Shown in pieces: positions 14,616 to 62,700 of a stretch of DNA of 64,000 nucleotides. How positions within the stretch are numbered: the first letter of the stretch is position 1; every line of letters begins with the position of its first letter. Origin of the DNA: Heterotrichella gracilis (Eukaryota > Sar > Xanthophyceae > Tribonematales > Xanthonemataceae); assembly GCA_032358255.1 (NCBI GenBank), contig JAULBX010015202.1, forward strand, positions 1 to 64,000, read 5' to 3'. The notes below the pieces were generated by a model. The model did no database searches and was not told the origin of the DNA. It was given only the letters and a program-made list of their open reading frames with translations. Position numbers and translations under genes: made by a program.

Positions 14616-17600
14616 GGGCCCGCCAGCAGTGTACCATATACAGCTAGCAGTTCAGTAAGAAGAAGACCCCTTGTGCCGCCCTCAGGCTGACATTCTCGGC
14701 CGCCAATTGAATTGCTTGCAAATGACAAATACAGTCAGTTAAGGCTAAGCCCTGGCCTGTACCATATGCCATATTTCTGATGTGAATCACTGAAAGGCCA
14801 CAGCTTCTGGGCCCCGCGGCGGCAAGGCACTTATCTGCTGAGCCGCCAAGTGATTGTCTAGCATTTTCAACGTTTCATGTTGAGCTGGGAGGGCAATAAT
14901 ATTCACTCACTTCCAAAGTTCTATTTGCGCCTGCTGCCAACCCCCGGGGCCTCATGATGTGGACATTGCCTTCAGGGGCAGACGAGGCAATAAGCCGATG
15001 GCGGCTGGGCATGCCTAAAAAAATGTTTGTATCCTTTAAAAATATTCAAGAAGGATACAAGGTCAGTAGGCACTTGGGACAGCCACCTGGGCATCGAAAC
15101 CAATCCAAATCAGGCTGACTTTCACTGTTCAACAAGACGCAAGAAAGCTAGTTTTTAAGGTTGACTCGATACCTGTGACATTAGCTTCGAGGTCCCAACC
15201 TAATTCAATTTTGCAAGGTGGCATTGGCTAAGGCCTGCTTGACTAGCCGTTCTAGCTGGCCGTCACAGATGGTGGCACTGCCCTGGTGAGAGCCAGTGGG
15301 CTATTGTGCACACCCTTTCTTCTGAAGTACCCAGCACCTGTCACCAACTGTTGGAGTGCCTCTTATTTGTGAACAACAGGCCAGGGTAACAGGCTGGTGG
15401 AACCACCACCAAGCCTGCTCGCACCTCACACTGAGAGTGCAACTCGGAGACTCGCAGCTGCTGTATCAGCAGCTGAATTGCGACACATAATTATAGTAGT
15501 TACAAAGGAGTGGTATATTGTGTATTGAAACAAGGACCGTGTCCCCTCGCTTGCCAGGCATCAAGTACACTTACGCTTTATAATGGCCTGTAAAATTGAT
15601 GGTGTGTAGTTGCCAAAAAGTAAACCCATGCCAAAACAGTGCAGAGCAGGATCAAGAAGCAGACAAGCATTGCAAGTGCTGTGGCAAGTCCAATATGCAC
15701 TTCCCTTAGGGGGATACAGCTTATGCAGGCAAAAAACCAACAAACAACGTGATATTTAGGGCTCAGGTCAAGTGTCGGATATTAATCCAGTCACTGCCAC
15801 AGATAGAACTGTGGCTCTCAGCAAAGTTATAATCATCGCCCAGTATGCACATGCACAGTGAATGCAGTTATATTGCAGCAGCTACCAGACCACCTCAGAC
15901 TTTCGCCTTTCAAAGTTGCTATCAACATCGTCTAGCAGCAACTACACCACCTAACTGCACACTCGCCCAAAGATAGTACGCTACACGTTACCACAAACTG
16001 CCGCTTTGTCCACTTTCCAAGGAGTTGTTGTAAAAGTGTTAGCTTCACTCGCCAGACTTAGTTGCATTCACTTGTGGCACATTCAAGGGACATCCACGTC
16101 ACAGTTTCATTCCAGAACTCGTTGGTATCTGCTTTGCCTGTACATCACATGGTTACAAGATGCAAGCAGGTACAGATAGCAAAGCAGGCAGGTGGCAATT
16201 TTGCAGGCAGTGGATACAGGTGTACACGTGGTAGGAAGGCAGTTACCAATAAAAACATCGAACCTTGGCATCAAGCTTACTGTGAAACCAGGACCATAAC
16301 AGGCTCAGGCCAGTGGACATTGGGTTAGTGGTGGTGCCTTGCGGCGGTTGTGGTGTTGGTGCCTTGCGGCGGTTGTGGTGTTGGTGCCTTGCGGCGGTGT
16401 GGTGTTGGTGCCTTGCGGCGGTGTGGTGTTGGTGCCTTGCGGCGGTTGTGGTGTTGGTGCCTTGCGGCGGTTGTGGTGTTGGTGCCTTGCGGCGGTGTGG
16501 TGTTGGTGCCTTGCGGCGGTACATGCCTATTTTTTAACGTGGTCAGGCCCACTGAAGAAAGCACACAGGAACACGATACAATCAGAACGCCATTGGACAG
16601 CAAACATGGTTCAAGGCGAGATACACAAATACATGCTCAAGGTCATACAAAGAGCTACACAGGCAGGGCTAATAGTAAGTCTACAGGAAAGGTGGGTTGC
16701 AAGCGTTACCAGAACTTGTACCACCTACGCAGCGCCCTTGAAGCTTTTCCCACAGCAACGCAAGATGAAAGCCAGAGCCCCACAGGAAACACCCCAGGAA
16801 CTCTTGGCGCGACGGCGACGGTGTGCAACTGCAGCCAAGCTTGAAAGCCAGGTGCAACATGCGGATATGCAGTTGTCCAAGGCACAATGATGCACCAACA
16901 GGACAACACAGCTGGTGGAACTGAATGGAGCGCAACAGATGCTACCTCCAGCTGAAAAGGAGTGGCGTAGGAGCTCCCTCTTGAGGGTGAACCAGGTATT
17001 GCCAAACATCAAACCCCCAAAGGCCAATACTGACGCTACCAACAGCGCTGCCACTCCAAGGCCAAACCCTTGCGCAGCTACCACCTGTACACCACGCTGA
17101 AACCCCGCGCGTGCAAGTGCAGAAATGCTGACCACATGCAGTGCCTGTAGTGCTACTGTCAAAGCACACCCGGAATGCTGCTCCACTGACACGTTTGAAG
17201 CAACCCACAAAGCTACCTGGTGCCCTGGTGCGCCAAGAAAGGAGAGGAGACGACGAGAGCCAAGCGATTTAAACAGCTGGCAAGAACGGCGGCGCGGTGC
17301 GTGGCGAAGAACTTGGTGCACATTGGAGTTACACTGGTTGGACGGGTGCACGCTGCAGACAACCTTGAAAGCTGGTATGCAGGGGGCGTGCGTGCAGGCC
17401 ACTGTGCGGCAACTGAGCAGCAACTGACAGCTGAATGCGTGGAAAGTAAAACAACAGTGGTACTGAACCTGGACAGCTGGGCGCGCCATAGCAACAGCGG
17501 ATGATCGCTGGGTGGGATGCCAGGTGGGGGCCTGTACATGCAATCAAACATACCCACGAGCTACAGGCTGACAGCAAACTAAGCCAAGCTACCTGGCAGA

Positions 17601-20467: not shown

Positions 20468-23400
20468 TCAGGTCTTCCCACTGGTGGCAGTGCGTGGCTT
20501 GAGCGCACTGCTGACCACCATCTGCACCATGCCCGCCGTGTTGGTGTGGGCGTGGAAGAAGTTGCGCATAACGGTGATACAGGGCTCCAGCGCCACCGCG
20601 TAGTGCCACCACCCGCGCGGGATCATCAGCGCCTGGCCTACAGGCAGGGAGTGGGCACAAACAGTCAAAATGGTGGCTGCCGTCACACTCTTTGCCTATC
20701 TTGGACTGACGCTGTCCACACACATTAACCTCTGGATCTAGCAACAGTTTGGAAAAGGCGTGGAATACATCATTTAGAAGGTCTGCCGCCAGGATCACAC
20801 AGCGCACCGCCCATTTGCAAAGCCCACCCATCATCACCACCCATTTGGGCCGCCTTATGCAGATACATATATATGATTAAAATGCAGAGATATATACAAA
20901 ATCTTCACGCACCTGGTTTCAGCACGCACGCCAAAGGGCTGGCAGTCCGGCACTCTGGGAAGCGCTCATAGTCAGGGCCCAGGGGGTCTATGGGGCTCTG
21001 GGTGGTCTCCGACTGGGTGCCATCCTTGTACAGGTGGGGCGTGTCCGAGGGGGGGTACAGCACAAACAGCTTCCTCCCCTGCACCTGCCCCAGCCACCCG
21101 TGTGCATCGCCCGCGTCGTAGTGCAGGCGGGTTATGGTGCCCGGGGGCCCCATGAACGCCTGCGGGATAATGGGAGGTATCTGCGTCAGGGTGTGCGGGG
21201 AGCCCGGCAAGGTTGCATGGGCAGTGTGCACACTGCGCCTTGCCCACAACACAGCCATGGTCGACCTGGATCCAGAAATCGTGGCCGATTGCAACAACAC
21301 ACTGGCGACATGGCATTCTTCATTAAATGGCATTCTTCATTAAAATTTTTATGGAACTTATGGAAATTGCAATCGGACTGCTTGTTAGGTTAAACCATAT
21401 AAATCCCCCAGGTGAGCAGGATCCCAATCAACAGATTCCACCAATGATTAGCAATCTTGAACAGGCATGTGAGCAAAGTGGCAAGTCATCCAGACCACGC
21501 CCGCTGTATTTAGGGCCAGGGTTTGTTCCAGGGCTCAGGGCGCATCCGCCTGCCCCCCACCTTTGTGAGGTGGTCTGCCGTCTGCGTCACCCACTCATCC
21601 GTGGCCTTGGCGTCAGGCTTTGACCCAGCCACTCGTGAGAACAGGGTGGTGTGCAGCGCAAGCAGGATGTCCCGGGAGTGGTCCACAGTCTGCGTGAAGT
21701 AGGGCAGCGGGCAGTCGGCCTGCGGGGGAAGGGAAAAGGGTGTGGCAACATCAGGTAATTATTGGCAGAGGGGCATGCATGGGGCGCAGTGCAATCTTGA
21801 AGCAGCACTTGCAGTTATGTTTGCTATGGGAATGGAGTAGGGGCGGGGGGGGGGCGCTAGGTATTCTCACATTGACGCACACTAAGCGTCTGAGATGTCA
21901 TGTGGCATTACAACTCTCTGTGCCAATAGGGGCGTGGAAAGTGGGTTGTGGTGATGCAGCAAATTCGTAGGTATAGGGCTCAGGGTTTGTCTCTTCAATG
22001 GATGCACAGCGCTGCCATGATGGCATGGTAATACTATGCGTTGCTCACCTTGAGTGCCGGGATTGACTCCCCGTAAAATCGCCAGCCGTTGAGGTAGAAG
22101 GGTGTGCGCTGGGAGGCGGCGCCAAGGGAGGCGGCAGCGTCGGACAGGCTGGAGGGGAAACCCTAGGGGTATAAGGCAATAGGGCAGAGGCTTAGGAGGG
22201 GCTCAAGCGGTTCAATGCATTTATGCATGACCAGGAAGACTTTAATATGTCACTGATTGCTGATACATTGAAGTCCTCCTGGCATGACTGCTGATCTGGC
22301 TCAGCTACTGAAATACCACATACTTAATTACTTCCATGGTCCCAACACCCCAACTCAGCAAGGCTGAAATGCACATACTTCCTCACTTTCATGGCCATGC
22401 ATACTCACATGCACGGCTACTACCACAGTTATCCCAAGCTTTACCATGAGCACCCTCATGAGGGTGTAAGCACCCCATTACTCCACATTTCCCGCACCTC
22501 CATGTAGTCGCAGTATGCCCCCAGGCTCAGCATCACCGACCGCTGCTTGCCTCCAGCCGCTTCATCGCCCCGCCTGGCGGGCGCCCTGTCATTGGCCATC
22601 ACCTGCTCCCGTTCATGATGCAGCCGCAGCCACTCGACAGACCACTTGCCCACCGCGGGCCAGTCGCGCAGGGCGTCGGCCACCAGCAGGGGCCTGCCAG
22701 CACCGCCATCGCAGGTCTGCAGGGAGGTGGGTGCGGGTGGGTGCGGGAGGTGAGGTGTGCGTGGCTGCTGTGCTGGGTGAGCTTGAAGGGCTTGGATTGC
22801 GCTGCGTCATGGGTGCATGCACGGACCGTGACTCACCATTGGCCATGGGTCATTCCGGCCATGGGTAATTCAGGGGCAGGTAGTGCAGTGTATTCACAAT
22901 GCTCATTGAGTGTTAATTGCATGCGACCAGTACTGTTCTTTGACTCCCGTCGTCAATGAGCAGTACCACAGCCAATGGCTACTCGATTGGCATTCCAAAC
23001 ACAGTGCACTGCCTGCCACTGGCCAATGGCCTGCACTGCAAGCTGCACCGTGCAACGCAGCAGTGGCTGCTGCTCCCTGCTGATGGCAAGGATACGCAAC
23101 AGCAACTGGGTGGCACCGGCCGCGTGTAGATTGGTGTGGGTACGAAATTATATTGCTATTATTATTAACAATAACATTAATTAAATAATAACTGATATAT
23201 TTTGGAACGCGATGGGATGATGCCAATAGCATGTGCACCAGCAACCGGTGCTTCCAAATTATGGGGTTGCCAATTGTCACTCACCAGTGCCTCTTCCACC
23301 TGCTGTGTCGCCACATCCACCACCACCTCTGGTGCCCCCACCACTCCTGGCACCGCCCCCGCTAGCGCATCCAGGGCCCCCACCCCACCCTCCACCGATG

Positions 23401-23473
23401 CCACCCACCGCAGCAGGGATGCGTATTCCGGTGTGGTGCGAGGGGAGGACATGGTGACCTTGGAAAGCTCCTC
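20468..23473 (-). CDS. JmjC/cupin-8 Fe(II) oxygenase
   Basis: 2-oxoglutarate/Fe(II)-dependent oxygenase of the JmjC (cupin 8) type: a protein hydroxylase or demethylase, target unknown. Minus-strand exons: 23473-23285, 22716-22498, 22162-22049, 21719-21561, 21180-20913, 20637-20468; phases agree. Counting from the ATG at 23452 gives 365 residues. PLLVADALRDWPAVGKWS is the usual N-terminal JmjC signature and FYLNGWRFYGESIPAL follows. The iron triad is visible: H240 and D242 in LHYDAGDAHGW, and H321 in IPRGWWHYAV. GRKLFVLYPPSDTP is the usual lid strand. The start of exon 5 could instead be 21 bases further on, since a second AG lies in phase. The first exon has a good acceptor at 23474 and is open upstream of the ATG, so a further coding exon may precede it: see the SNW entry. 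Confidence 0.85.
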
Positions 23474-23872
23474 CTGTGAATGGACAAAAGGGGGGGGTAA
23501 TATAGGGAGAGACCAGAGTGGAAAGATGGTGGCGGTGGCATTAATAACATCATTTGCAATTAATGACGCCGCCACCATCATGATGCAGGAGTACATCTGT
23601 CAACTGAACACGGAACGGATCGCCAAGCCGATGAATGATCCTTTATCATAACCAAGTTGATGCAATCCGGCATTTACATGATGCCTCGTTTGCTCATCAA
23701 GATCTGTTACTTTACAGCAGTGCTTTGTCAATTATTTTCATAGTGCATGAAATGTGGTCGATAGTAATTTATAAGTATTGCTCCTTGGGCAAATCACCAC
23801 CCCATAATGCATATGCTATATAGCGTGCATGGAGTGCTTGATCAAACCCTCTGCTAGGGTGTAGCAGCACAC

Positions 23873-24432
23873 CTGCATGTCAGTCCAGTCCCTGAGCAGG
23901 ACCGCATCTGGCAGCCGTGTCCCCTTCGGCCCCACCCCGCATCCCAAGGGGTACTGTATCACATGGCACTCAGGGTAGGCGCCACCATCGCCAAAGTCGG
24001 AGGGCTGGCGGGGCGTGAAACCCTTACGGGACCCTGCACACCACATTGAAGAATTGCTTCTGTGGCTGGTGTATGACATATTCCCGATCCATGTTCATGT
24101 ATCTACAGCAACAGCAGCTGTGAATGCCCTTGCATAAGCATCCAAGTCATTCCATGGAGGGCGCCCATCAACAATGTCAGCAATGACTAAGGGGCACATC
24201 GTAGAGTAGCAGTGTGTCATGCTAGTGCTACATGCCTTCTTGCAGCAACGTTTCTTTATGAAGCACTTGCCAATGTGTATCTTAAAAGGCCAGTACATGG
24301 CGCGGCGCACAGCTTTTTCTGATAGCAGCACTTCAGTGCAAAGCACCTCAGTGCCCACCAGGACTGTGGGCATAGGTGTGGTGTGGCTCACCGTATGGAG
24401 GTGGCGAGTGGCCCATAACCAGTGTATACTCC
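23873..24432 (-). CDS. SNW/SKIP N-terminal exons, maybe joined to the JmjC gene
   Basis: Two minus-strand exons, 24432-24393 and 24033-23873, encode the conserved N-terminus of SNW/SKIP, a spliceosome and transcription co-regulator: HSPPPYG joins SRKG, then GFTPRQPSDFGDGGAYPE and CHVIQYPLG. This matches the family's PPYG.RKG[WF].PR..EDFGDGGAFPEIH..QYPL. The match stops there: the next 27 residues, to DWTDMQ, are unlike SNW, and the family's core (CISNWKN, RLAADGRG) was not found in either direction. The second exon ends in phase 0 and the next acceptor downstream, at 23474, opens the JmjC gene in phase 0 after a 399-base gap. It is therefore either the 5' part of a chimeric SNW-JmjC gene or an SNW remnant. 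A start codon was not identified. Confidence 0.6.
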
Positions 24433-56779: not shown

Positions 56780-59700
56780 CTACGCCGCAACCACAGGGCT
56801 GGGCGGCAGCCAGCGCGGCGGGAGCCACATGGTGCGCCTGGTCTCCACCGCCAGGGGGGTGCCGCCAATGACGTCGACGGGGCGGCGCGGGGCGATGGGG
56901 ACGGGAACGGGCAGGGCGGGTGCCTGCGGGGAGGGTAGGGGTTAGAGATAGCGGTAGCCATTGGCAGGCAATAGGGGTGTGGGTATAGTCAACAACAGTC
57001 AATCAGTCCAGCACCACAGTGCTTGCTGTTCTCCACTACAAGACCTATGCCAGCCAGGACTGCGTATACCACTGTTGCACCAACAGTGAAGGCTGAGCCA
57101 GGGTGCAATCAACGCGGCATACCCTATCGCCTCGGGTGATTGACCAGGGCTGTGCAATGACATCAGGACATGGGAACTGCATGCCTGGAGGAGCAGCTGA
57201 AGTGCTGGTGCTAGCATGGCCCCATGCTGTTGCACAACATGACCATGAGCACCTATGCCTGTCAATGCCCTGCTTACAGAATACTTGGCCGACTTCCCCG
57301 CCACTGAATCGCATCACACACTACCCCTACACCATCCCCAAACACAGCCCCACCTGTGCCTTGGCTGCGCCATTGACCACCACCGATGGAACCTCGCCTG
57401 GGTGTGCGGTCGCCTTGCGCTGCGGCGGGCGCCAGGTGCACGGCTCTGGGCCCCGGTGGAGCGACACGCGCGCCCCGCGGTAGGTCGGCAATCTGCGCCA
57501 GGGACGGTAGGAAGGCGGGGAGGGCGGGGCGTCATCCGCTGCTGCTGGTGGTGGTGGCTGTGGCGGAGGAGAGGCGAAATGCGCCAGAGATGGTGTGGTG
57601 GCCAGTGCGGGGGGCACAGCAGGGGTGGTCGGGATCGGCGGCGCGCGCGTTGGCGGTGACGGGTGGGCGAGCTGCGGCGCCACTCCCCGCAGCAGCCCTG
57701 GTGGCATCCTTGTCTTGAGGCTCATGCTGCCCCCCCCTGTGGACAGGGTCTCCCCCAGGATGAGGGACGAGGGGCGGCGCAGCAGCGCCTCAACGCTGCG
57801 GGCGGGGGAGGAGGGCGGGGGGCTGGTGGGCCCGGGGGACGGTGGGGACTCTGCTTGGGGGCTGGACACATGCTGCTGCTCCCCATGGGGTATGGCTGGT
57901 GACAGGGGTGACTGGCGGGGTGCTGGTGCTGGTGCTGGTGCATCTGCCTGTGGGTGTGCCTGGTGCGGCAGCGGTGGGGGGTGCTGTGTGTCTGCCGCCA
58001 CTGGCAGGTCCGGTGTGTCAGGCTGGCTGGGGGGGACAACCTGCTTCGCCCACGACTTGGGGGCCATGGAAGCTACTTGCCGGGCAGGCCGCGAGTGGGT
58101 TGCTGTGTCTGTGGCGGGTGGAGGTGCTGCTGGCCCGCCCCCTCGATGCAGCGACTCTGCGGGAATGCGTGCCCCCCGTGGCAGCGCATACCCCCTGCCA
58201 CCGCCCCTCTCCCCCTCCTGCCCCCGGGGCAGCAGGTGGTCAATGCCATCCCACCCGCCCGGGCCAGGTGGGGGCGTGTGTCCCCTCGCCTGCACCGCCA
58301 CCTGCGCCGCCTCCCTGACCCGGTCCATCAGGCTGCCCGTCACATACTCTGCAGCCACCCCCTGCAGCTGGGGGATCTCCTCCAGCTTGGACGCGATCAC
58401 CTTGTCGGCAACCTCGCGCGGCACGCCGCTGCACGACACCAGGTGCTGCGCAAACTGGCGCAGGACCGACACAAGCATGTCGGTGCGGGGGCTCTCTTCG
58501 GCGCGGGGCGGGGCGGGCTGGGGCGGGGCGGGGGGCTCGCGCCGGACCTCGGCGGAGGCGGCGGCCAGGTGCGGGCGCTTGGCAGCCGTGGGGGATGCTG
58601 ACGCGGCTGGCGAGGATGCCTCTGCGCGCATGTTGACCACGCGGCTGCGCTTGCCCTTCACCTTGGCGGCTGGAAGCGCCTCGGAGGGGGATGGAGGGTG
58701 CCGCTTCATCACGCCAGATGGGGGCGGCTCCAGCGGGGATGGGGGGTGTCGCTCCTCCATGCCAGATGGCAGGGGCTCGCGTGGAGACTGGGAGTGCCGC
58801 TCCACCACGCCATACGCTTGCGGCTCGCGCGGGGAGTGAGGGTGTCGCTCCTCCACCCCAAATGGTGGCGGCTCGCGTGGAGACTGAGAGTGTCGCTCCC
58901 TCCTATAGCGTGAAGGAGCAGCACCCTCACTCCCCGTGCCATATGGTGATGCCGCCCCTGCCGCCCCATGCCCAGCTGGCCTGGGTGATGCTGCTGTTGG
59001 TGACTCAGCTGGGGTGGGTGGGGGCCGCCGTGGCTGGGGCGGATGGGCGGCCTCCTCAAAATGGCGCGGGTGCGGTGGCGGGGCCCCCAGCGGGGCCCGT
59101 GGCGGTGCCCCGTGCAGGGGGTGGTACAGCGAGTGGATGTCCTCGGGGTAGGCGTGCTGCCCGCCAGCGCGCGCCGCCGCCAGCCTGACCAGGAGCGCGT
59201 CCAACAGGGCGGGGTCCGTGTAGGATGGCGGGGGGTGCGGGGGGTAGTGGTCGTAGCGCCAGGGGTACATGGCGGCGGGGATGCCGCAGCCCATCTCGGC
59301 GTCCAGGAACGCCATGGTGTCGTGGTAGAGCGGGGCGCGGGGGGGGTAGCGCAGGGGCTCCGCTGGGCGGTAGTGGTGGTCGTAGTAGTGAGCCGGCGGC
59401 GGGGGCGCCCAGTGCGAGTGACCGGGATCGCTTGACCGCAGCATTGGGTCCCTGAGATCGCTTGACCGCAGCAGTGGGTCCCGGGGACCGCTTGACCGCA
59501 GCATTGGGTCCCGGGGACCGCTTGACCGCAGCATGGGGTCGGGCCAGGCGCTGTGGTGTGGTGCTCCCGACAGGCGCGCAAGCTCCGCTGCGTGCATCTG
59601 CGCCAGCTGGCTGAGGCGCAGGGAGGTGGGGGGGCGGTGGGACGGGTAGGGGTCCTGGTCGGGGTGGCGGTGGGGGGGCGGGGGGCCCGAGGGGAGCCAG

Positions 59701-62700
59701 CGGCCGGGGGGCGAGGGGGGCCGCTGGGGGTGGCGGTGTGGGTCGGCGTCTAGGTGGCACGTGTGGCCTGTGCGCGGGTGTGCACCTTGGTGCCAGTGCT
59801 CCTCTGCTGCTGGGCCATGCAGCCCCTGGTGTGGGGGTGGGGCGGGGTGGTGGGGCAGCGCAGGCATGCCGTCTTTAATCCTCAGATGCTCGTACTCAGA
59901 CCTGCACCAGCCAGCCGCACACACATGAGCTCTCACCATACAAACGCAGCGCACAATTTTTTGAGATAAGATTACAATTAAATAGTATGGAAATTATTAT
60001 ATATATCGAAAAAAAAAAAGGCTGCTGGATCCACGTGTTTATCAGTGCAACCAGTCCATCCATACGCTTGCTTGCGCCACACAGGGCCCTGCCCCTGTCT
60101 CACAGAGCGTGCACACATATGGCAACTGCCTGGCAGCGCACCTGGGGAAGTTGATGATTGCCTCGTCCCCCAGGACCTGCAGCACGCGCACGTCGTAGGC
60201 GCGCGCCGCCGCCTCCTCATTGTCAAAGATTCCGATGTACACCGCCTTCTTGTTGCGGCACAGCTGTGCCTTCCAGCGCCGCGTGACCTTGCACCAGCAC
60301 ACACCGCGGTAGCGCGAGGTCTTGGTGCGGCTGCGGGGCTGGCGCTGGCTGGCGCCGCCGGCGTCGCTGCCGCCGTGGGACTGCGGGTGTGGGGGGGCGG
60401 GTGAGGGTCAGGGCACATGTGGGTGGGCTAAGGTTTGCATGTGGCACAGGTGCATGTGGCACCTGGACAATTTCCTGCTGGTGATTGCGCATACCCAAAC
60501 CAGAACAACAAACCTGGCTGTGCAGTTGGAATGCACAATCTTTCCCATTTTGCAAGTGGACTGTGTGGCTGGCCAGGCATTACACATGCCACATGGGAGG
60601 CAATCAGCCAACCAGATTCCCCGAGTACCCATGCCACCATGCTGGGGTCTAGGCTGCTTACCAGAGATTGCTCTGAATGATCCATGGAGTGGTGGGGCGA
60701 GCCAGGTGGCGCCGAGTGCTCCACCTCCGCATGGGGAACATGTGGAGCTGTATACCGTTGATGCGGTGGACCCTCGCTGTAGGCAGCCGCAGGCGCCGGC
60801 CACTCGGGGGCTGTGCGCTGTTGCTGGTGGCTGTGCTGGGCGGCGGGCGGGGCCACGTGGGGGTTTGGCGCATCCTGTGCGTCCCAGGGCTTGGCAGCAC
60901 CGGTGGGAGGGGACATGGCGCGGAAGGGGAGCTTGAACTCTCGAGCAGGCCGCTGCACAGGGTGGGGAGGGGACATCAATTCTACATTGGGGCGGGGCTT
61001 GGGGTTACAGGGGCTGGCATAACGACCACGTGGAGCTGCCCCAACAATGGACTGCGTGCCCTGGAGGGGTGGTTACAAGCGCAAGTTGGGCCCTTAGCAG
61101 CCAACCTAAAACATATGTTTGGACCTGTGTTGATACTGGGTGCATCATGGTCCAGCTGGCCATCTAAACTCGGTGCGTGCTCTATTGTTCAATATGCAAC
61201 GGACATACGCAAGTTGGTATTGTGATGGCCAACTGAGTGATGCTTGGGTTGTGGCTGTTGTCTGATATGTGAACATTATTACAGGTGTGACCCCCTACCT
61301 CCATGTTGTGCGGGTCCACAGGGAAGTTGGTGGCAGCGTGGGGCCCAAACAGCTGCACCGAGTGGTAGTCATACACCTTGGCCGCCTCCTCCTCGGTGCG
61401 GTGTATGCCCAGGTACACGGCCTTGCCGTGGTGGTACAGCTGCGCGCGCCAGCGGTGCGTCACCTTGCACCATGACACGCCCCGGTAGGCGGAAGCCTTG
61501 GTCTTTTTCAGCGCGCGGGGCTTGTAGGGGGAGGCGCGCTGGGTCACCTGCAGGGGAGGGGAGGGGTGGAATGAGGGGTGGCGTACTGGGACGGGTATGC
61601 TACCGTGAACCCTACCCCACGGTGGGTTCCAGGTTGAGAGGGAGAGAGGAGTAGCATTGGGGCAGGGTAGGCTAGCCACAGGCTACTGGGGAATTGTGCA
61701 CAGGAGTTTGGCATATGAACCCGCTCTTGGTTGCAGCAAAACTGTGGGGCTGTAACCTCAGGCTGCATCAACAGGCCACCATGGAAAAGAAACCCACACA
61801 TGAGTTGCTGAAGGAGTGGTCACACTGTGACCGTCACTGGGCCCCCCAACATTATTTGGGACATTGTTTGTACACTGTCAGACCTGGAAACCCCTGACGA
61901 TAGTAACTAGGAAGTGGCTGGCTTGGCAGACCAAAAATATGACTGCAACCTTGACGTTTACCCTCGTCCTATACACCCAGGCGCCGCGAGTTGGCTAGCA
62001 CCGTGTTAGCCAGGGTGGTGCGGTGTGGATATCATTGGCGCGCGGCAGCCTGCACGTTTGCCTCTTGGCAGGCCGCGGCAGCCCGTGCGCGTACCTTGCG
62101 ACGCTTGGGTGCCGTGAAGGACGGTTCCGAGTCTTCGGAAGCCGCTGGCTGGTATTCATCCTCAGATTGGGTACCGTCTGCGTCTGGCCTCCTGGCGGTC
62201 CGCTTGCCCCGGGAACCGCCGCGAGGTGCAGGCTCCGCATCTCGCCTCACTTCGCCACTGTGCAACTCGCCTGCTTCGTCATATCCACGTGCTTGCTGTG
62301 CTGCGCGGGCAGGAGCAGCTGCCCTTGGCGGTCCAGCGTTGCTGGGCAGTGCAGTGCTCCTCCTGGGGTGGCCTTGGCTCTCCATAGCCGATAGCATCGC
62401 CCAGGCATCGCCCTCACCTGCGTCCTCACCCTCGGAAGGGAGGCCAACCCCCGTCACTTTGTTTGTTGTGGGCGGATCTCGTGGCTGCCGCCTGCCGCCA
62501 CCTGGCACCGCACCATCCTGTGCAATGGAAATGTGCTATTCATACACATGGGGACGGTGGGCTGGCAGTGGGGACAAGCGGGCATGGCGCACCTAACCAG
62601 GTTCCACAGAAGGTAAGCATTCAGCTGTGCAAGGGCAATCGTACAACGAAAGCACTATTCTACTTTATGCAGACCTTCTGCGCACTGCAAACATGACCTG

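Follow-up and report, generated by a model that had tools for sequence, protein, structure and literature searches.

Does an N-terminal arm of the SNW/SKIP type form the 5′ end of a JmjC oxygenase gene in Heterotrichella gracilis? The question is raised by a locus in the first 64,000 nucleotides of contig JAULBX010015202.1 (hereafter, the window; it is the start of contig C153 in the genome searched, which comprises 903 contigs and 68.5 Mb), where two exons with an SNW-like motif lie just upstream of a JmjC gene. The original prediction placed these two exons, with their splice sites and phases, ahead of a gap of 399 base pairs (bp) and a complete JmjC gene on the same strand. These positions held up, with small boundary corrections to the SNW exons. 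The JmjC acceptor does open in phase 0 ahead of that gene's own ATG, the first base of its exon being 23473 and not 23474. The sequence allows the proposed fusion and leans somewhat towards it, and we consider a real SNW-JmjC chimera moderately probable, preferring it to a separate truncated SNW gene or to relic exons.

A search of all solved protein chains with a 67-residue query from the SNW-like exons returned ten rows at expectation values (E) up to 1. The first eight were SNW/SKIP/Prp45 chains, with E from 1.6e-15 to 1.2e-10, headed by T27F2.1, which we take to be worm SKIP, and 8xi2_R, presumably Chlamydomonas SKIP; the tenth was an SNW1 chain (E 0.53). The ninth, at E 0.0034, was the entry 2k7n of the cyclophilin PPIL1, matched at residues 178-201, a position consistent with the fusion of PPIL1 and SKIP made for nuclear magnetic resonance (NMR) and mentioned in PMC2848857. 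Additionally, the DNA pattern for PPPYG occurs a single time on both strands of the whole window, at 24404, with a GT immediately 3′ of it. A chance SNW-like motif is ruled out by the chain matches together with this single pattern abutting GT, and these signals indicate that the SNW-like exons are real and that their motif had been correctly identified. Compared with SNW/SKIP/Prp45 proteins (human SNW1 and 8xi2_R), the window arm has the same PPPY, R, PR, DFGDGGA, PE, H, Q, PL and G, in the same order and spacing, and differs in that no PF02731 core was found downstream. The remainder of SNW had indeed been described as missing from the window: the PF02731 core matched on contig C98 only among the genome contigs, with no match in the window. 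Pfam also found no SNW domain in the 427-residue model of the proposed chimera; its SNW model does not cover the arm, and the C98 arm alone likewise gives none.

The whole-genome check for a second, full-length SNW gene, which had been suggested along with the fusion, was positive. The gene on C98 is full length as judged by eye, running from MSTLLGSLPAPTRD through PPPYG and SNWKN to the C-terminus, and the best match of its core is 8xi2_R (251.3 bits, against 213.9 for the next). Together with the AP2 domains found in the window, this match would suggest a green-algal genome. Its arm lies within one exon, without the intron that the window copy has inside PPPYG. This gene shows that the window exons are dispensable to the cell as SNW, and it leaves the fusion question undecided. 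The window exons are not part of this main SNW gene, which lies on C98 with its own one-exon arm. The SNW arm was found at two places in the genome, C98 and the window; a third candidate copy, on C193 (E 0.02), was rejected, because visual inspection of part of its translation revealed no SNW motif.

The window and C98 arms are 59% identical over 41 residues, and a DNA search found no other match to the stretch in the genome besides the window's own inverted repeat. In a 40-codon alignment, synonymous differences occupy 22.0 of 28.8 sites (0.76), which amounts to saturation, and nonsynonymous differences 30.0 of 91.2 sites (0.33); where both copies encode the same residue (24 codons), 11 codons are identical. 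A recent segmental copy of C98 is therefore ruled out by the lack of a DNA match, by the saturated synonymous sites and by the intron missing from C98. The conserved N-terminal arm with a DFGDGGAFPE-type motif, characteristic of SNW/SKIP, is still present: of 38 aligned columns, C98, Chlamydomonas, worm and human agree in 26, and 21 of these are retained in the window arm. At five positions where C98 differs, the window residue matches one seen in worm, human or Chlamydomonas. By these comparisons, the window arm is an old, diverged copy of the SNW N-terminus that was very probably under selection during most of its life, because its synonymous sites are saturated and the invariant residues are retained.

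In the 427-residue model, Pfam identified Cupin_8 (PF13621) at 129.6 bits (cut-off 27.4; E 2.5e-37) and JmjC (PF02373) at 30.8 bits (cut-off 24; E 4.4e-7). The solved structure closest to the JmjC protein was JMJD5 (82.1 bits, E 3.9e-22), followed by JMJD7, FIH and JMJD6. In JmjC oxygenases, the HxD motif and a distal histidine form the iron site, and the lysine of the GRK motif also has a functional role; LHYD (HxD), GRKLF (GRK lysine) and WWHYA (distal histidine) of the window protein all aligned to JMJD5. Based on the order of best matches, the protein is JMJD5-like and a predicted iron/2-oxoglutarate oxygenase, with the JMJD5/KDM8-like Cupin_8 oxygenases as its nearest solved relatives. 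It would differ from JMJD5/KDM8 in bearing an SNW arm in place of their usual N-terminal region. JMJD6, whose similarity is below that of JMJD5 (48.6 vs 82.1 bits), is an oxygenase that acts on splicing factors, an action on splicing proteins that the proposed chimera would share; to our knowledge, no SNW arm occurs on JMJD6. Six further JmjC/Cupin_8-like matches were found in the genome, their matched parts being 44% to 30% identical to the window gene, and the SNW arm search gave no match on the six contigs that carry them.

The junction between the two parts was examined with a splice model built from 35 donors and 34 acceptors. Its cyclophilin part was taken from ten loci scoring above 250, with 34 introns, of which 26 donors and 25 acceptors were kept by hand and the doubtful rest dropped. 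No site between 24031 and 23600 scores higher than the phase-0 donor at 23873, which has 7.83 bits; the next has 4.27. Among the known donors this one is middling, with 12 of 35 scoring lower and equally good sites occurring 1.27 times per kilobase (kb). The gap had been called an ordinary intron size, and its 399 bp do fall inside the range of 73-709 bp spanned by 44 introns, some of them doubtful (34 from cyclophilin genes, six from the window and four from C98). Within the gap lies a hairpin (23525-23579) with 21-base arms and 13 bases between them, about 50-105 bases ahead of the proposed acceptor; a stretch of 101 bases that includes the hairpin has a folding energy of -36.8 kcal/mol (z -6.0), and the DNA search with the whole stretch found no other copy of the hairpin in the genome.

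Coding potential was scored with a codon model of 1657 codons from which the JmjC gene was left out; introns of other genes (cyclophilin and C98) served as added noncoding controls. Exon 2 scored 12.8 bits over 53 codons in its proposed frame and -32.6 and -39.8 bits in the other two. None of the test windows drawn from noncoding DNA of the window (3770), cyclophilin introns (3807) or C98 introns (673) scored as high as the 24-codon tail of this exon. On the other side of the gap, the seven codons EELSKVT, which stand between the proposed acceptor and the JmjC ATG, scored 6.5 bits when read in the donor's frame. Among the noncoding controls, 13 of 4127 test windows from the window itself (0 of 1581 with comparable G+C), 5 of 4878 from cyclophilin introns and 1 of 877 from C98 introns scored this high, compared with 481 of 1585 coding windows. 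When the JmjC gene was added to the codon model, the noncoding counts became 15 of 4127 and, at similar G+C, 1 of 1581. The fusion thus appears plausible, with some support beyond phase. An unspliced JmjC start at the in-frame ATG at 23596 is ruled out, as the 41 codons from 23596 to 23474 score -28.5 bits in the required frame. The resemblance of the exon 2 tail to a JmjC segment (LLRDW vs ALRDW) was considered as a sign of a copied JmjC piece and rejected as not significant (160 of 3000 shuffles as high); the same kind of test of the tail against part of the C98 SNW protein gave 444 of 3000 as high.

Several observations weigh against the chimera. Agreement of phase would by itself occur by chance in one case out of three. 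The acceptor at 23473 is weak, with a score of 3.13; only 3 of 34 known acceptors are lower, and sites as good occur 13 times per kb. The acceptor at 23603 scores higher (4.54) and would yield a short ending that is not JmjC, and, judging from the phases, the donor at 23873 could alternatively skip to 22716. The context of the JmjC ATG, GTCACCATGTCC, is Kozak-like and resembles that of the C98 SNW start, CCCACCATGTCG. Additionally, two TGTAA motifs lie in the gap, 100 and 138 bases past the stop that is reached by reading on through the donor. As for the coding scores, EELSKVT is just seven codons long, the window noncoding set supplied both training and test data, and all windows overlap. In a 5-kb stretch of C98 (50001-55000), which is unannotated, may contain genes and was counted separately, 78 of 4980 windows reached the EELSKVT score and 293 of 4929 matched the exon 2 tail; in a mixed control that includes this stretch, the counts were 83 of 9969 and 293 of 5865 open windows, respectively. 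Finally, five otherwise invariant SNW residues are altered in the window arm, which may have undergone recent decay.

The alternative that best survives these data, and one that we regard as unlikely, is a separate short gene. In this case, a truncated SNW protein of approximately 80 residues would end in the gap, either at the stop at 23818-23816, reached by read-through of the donor, or after splicing to 23603. The JmjC gene would then have a promoter of its own and start at 23452, and the truncated product would compete with SNW for PPIL1 binding. The conserved SNW residues are compatible with such a product, and the Kozak-like context, the better acceptor at 23603 and the TGTAA pair also speak for it. 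According to part of PMC4701671, UGUAA is the main poly(A) signal in Chlamydomonas, and PMC1868727 describes this signal as restricted to late-branching chlorophytes. At least two TGTAA motifs were present in 6.6% of composition-matched simulations and in one of the 44 introns, and at least one in six of the 44. After the approximate coding ends of six cyclophilin loci, TGTAA follows at 171-434 bases in four, a spacing that adds to the case for a short gene, and none was found within 617-973 bases in the other two. The motif is nevertheless no sure guide to 3′ ends here, because the first exact TGTAA past the JmjC stop is 2063 bases away. The two versions of the short gene also meet difficulties of their own. 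Continuing past the donor for 18 codons gives a score of -1.0 bits, with 21 of 1453 coding windows at or below this value and 1358 of 7325 open noncoding windows as high, so that this stretch is poor as coding and not clearly noncoding; the read-on would, moreover, leave the donor that ends exon 2 unused. The exon at 23603 is worse, at -13.5 bits over 17 codons. Both versions leave the coding-like EELSKVT unexplained and require just 399 bp to accommodate a 3′ end together with a promoter and 5′ leader.

It is less probable still that the two exons are relics, that is, a partial or once-whole second SNW gene that lost its core and is now decaying noncoding DNA near an ordinary JmjC gene. The presence of the PF02731 core on C98 only, the five altered residues and the fact that no other partner is known for the donor are consistent with this explanation, and the loss may be recent and have followed a long functional life. 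Nevertheless, the open frame, the splice sites and 21 of the 26 invariant residues have been retained despite saturated synonymous sites, and the composition of the exons is coding-like. An assembly error, by which the SNW exons and the JmjC gene would not be real chromosomal neighbours, is very improbable, since the window contains no N's and the C98 copy is too diverged for a misjoin.

If the SNW-JmjC chimera is real, a JMJD5-like JmjC gene would have acquired its 5′ end from an old partial copy of the SNW/SKIP N-terminus. Transcription would begin upstream of 24416, splicing would link 24392 with 24033 and 23873 with 23473, and all six JmjC exons would follow, giving the 427-residue protein. 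The use of this junction, the binding of the arm to PPIL1 and the substrates are inferred.

A candidate partner for the arm is encoded in the genome. The gene on contig C487 is likely PPIL1, as its three exons match at 64, 74 and 62% identity, the highest values among 21 cyclophilin matches. Inspection by eye against what we take to be the human PPIL1 sequence shows the same residue at Tyr28, Lys91, Thr93, Ile97, Arg131 and Cys133, Arg in place of Lys30, Glu in place of Asp89 and a different residue at His87. By the same inspection, the C487 protein retains the majority of the pocket residues listed in PMC2848857. That work used a peptide array and NMR shifts to dock a SKIP peptide of ten residues, DGGAFPEIHV, on PPIL1; its anchors are Pro65, Glu66 and His68, and an NMR study cited there gives Met76 as a further PPIL1 contact. 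The window counterpart, DGGAYPECHV, keeps the Pro, Glu and His anchors; the position of Met76 is a Cys, a change that weighs against the proposed explanation. PPIL1 is described in part of PMC6315705 as a member of the Prp19 complex with SNW1 and as abundant in the B* and Bact spliceosomes.

Docking of the oxygenase on PPIL1 by the arm would be a reasonable mechanism for the chimera. The flexible SNW arm, bearing the short epitope, would dock the predicted oxygenase to PPIL1; PPIL1 would in turn bring the oxygenase to the Prp19-related region of the active spliceosome, and there the enzyme might hydroxylate nearby splicing proteins. That the arm of a chimeric oxygenase has been kept under selection for PPIL1 docking, bringing hydroxylation to the catalytic spliceosome, is a more tentative proposal, which we hold to be possible and somewhat doubtful. 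If it were true, splicing would be sensitive to oxygen and 2-oxoglutarate through a domain fusion. If the junction is real, a peptide that docks to the spliceosome would be naturally fused to a protein hydroxylase; such a protein would offer a direct way to ask whether hydroxylation acts within the active spliceosome, and would show that the SKIP arm works alone as a portable docking tag. No report of an SNW-JmjC fusion protein was found in the open PMC literature, a weak negative whose scope did not extend to bioRxiv preprints and most subscription papers. Relatives of the SNW arm were not confirmed in viral contigs or prokaryote genomes, as expected for a eukaryotic family.

Table. Features of the SNW-JmjC locus (window positions) and the other JmjC-like matches of the genome (contig:positions).
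Feature	Positions	Strand	Remarks
SNW-like exon 1	24392..24416	minus	MGHSPPPYG; ATG at 24416, donor GTGAGC, phase 1; likely start of the proposed chimera
SNW-like exon 2	23873..24033	minus	SRKGFTPRQPSDFGDGGAYPECHVIQYPLGCGVGPKGTRLPDAVLLRDWTDMQ; acceptor GTGCAG, donor CAG/GTGTGC, ends in phase 0
SNW-like exon 2, contents	23873..24033	minus	Counterpart of the SKIP epitope that binds PPIL1
Gap, proposed intron	23474..23872	minus	399 bp; strong hairpin and two TGTAA motifs inside
Seven codons, EELSKVT	23453..23473	minus	From acceptor (ACAG) to JmjC ATG, phase 0; coding-like in the frame of the SNW donor
JmjC exon 1 from its own ATG	23285..23452	minus	Exon including EELSKVT, 23473-23285
JmjC exon 2	22498..22716	minus	Cupin_8 match begins here, GRPLLVADALRDWPAVGKW
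JmjC exon 3	22049..22162	minus	
JmjC exon 4	21561..21719	minus	
JmjC exon 5	20913..21159	minus	Iron-site HxD and GRK lysine
JmjC exon 6 (last)	20468..20637	minus	Distal iron-site His (WWHYA) and stop codon
Further JmjC-like match	C118:49275-49568		
Further JmjC-like match	C110:52979-53335		
Further JmjC-like match	C264:40338-40655		
Further JmjC-like match	C4:100669-100998		
Further JmjC-like match	C23:40783-40950		
Further JmjC-like match	C288:185692-185892		

Elsewhere in the window, an 888-residue proline-rich open frame (57330-59993, minus strand), with no Pfam match at 0.01, lies where the window is richest in G+C (0.71 at 58-60 kb). Two frames with an AP2 domain, typical of plant-type transcription factors, are located close together at 60045-60407 and 61185-61682, also on the minus strand. 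A short-unit repeat is present at approximately 16300-16640, and its translations show repeated LVPCGG/GALRR and PPQGTNT runs.

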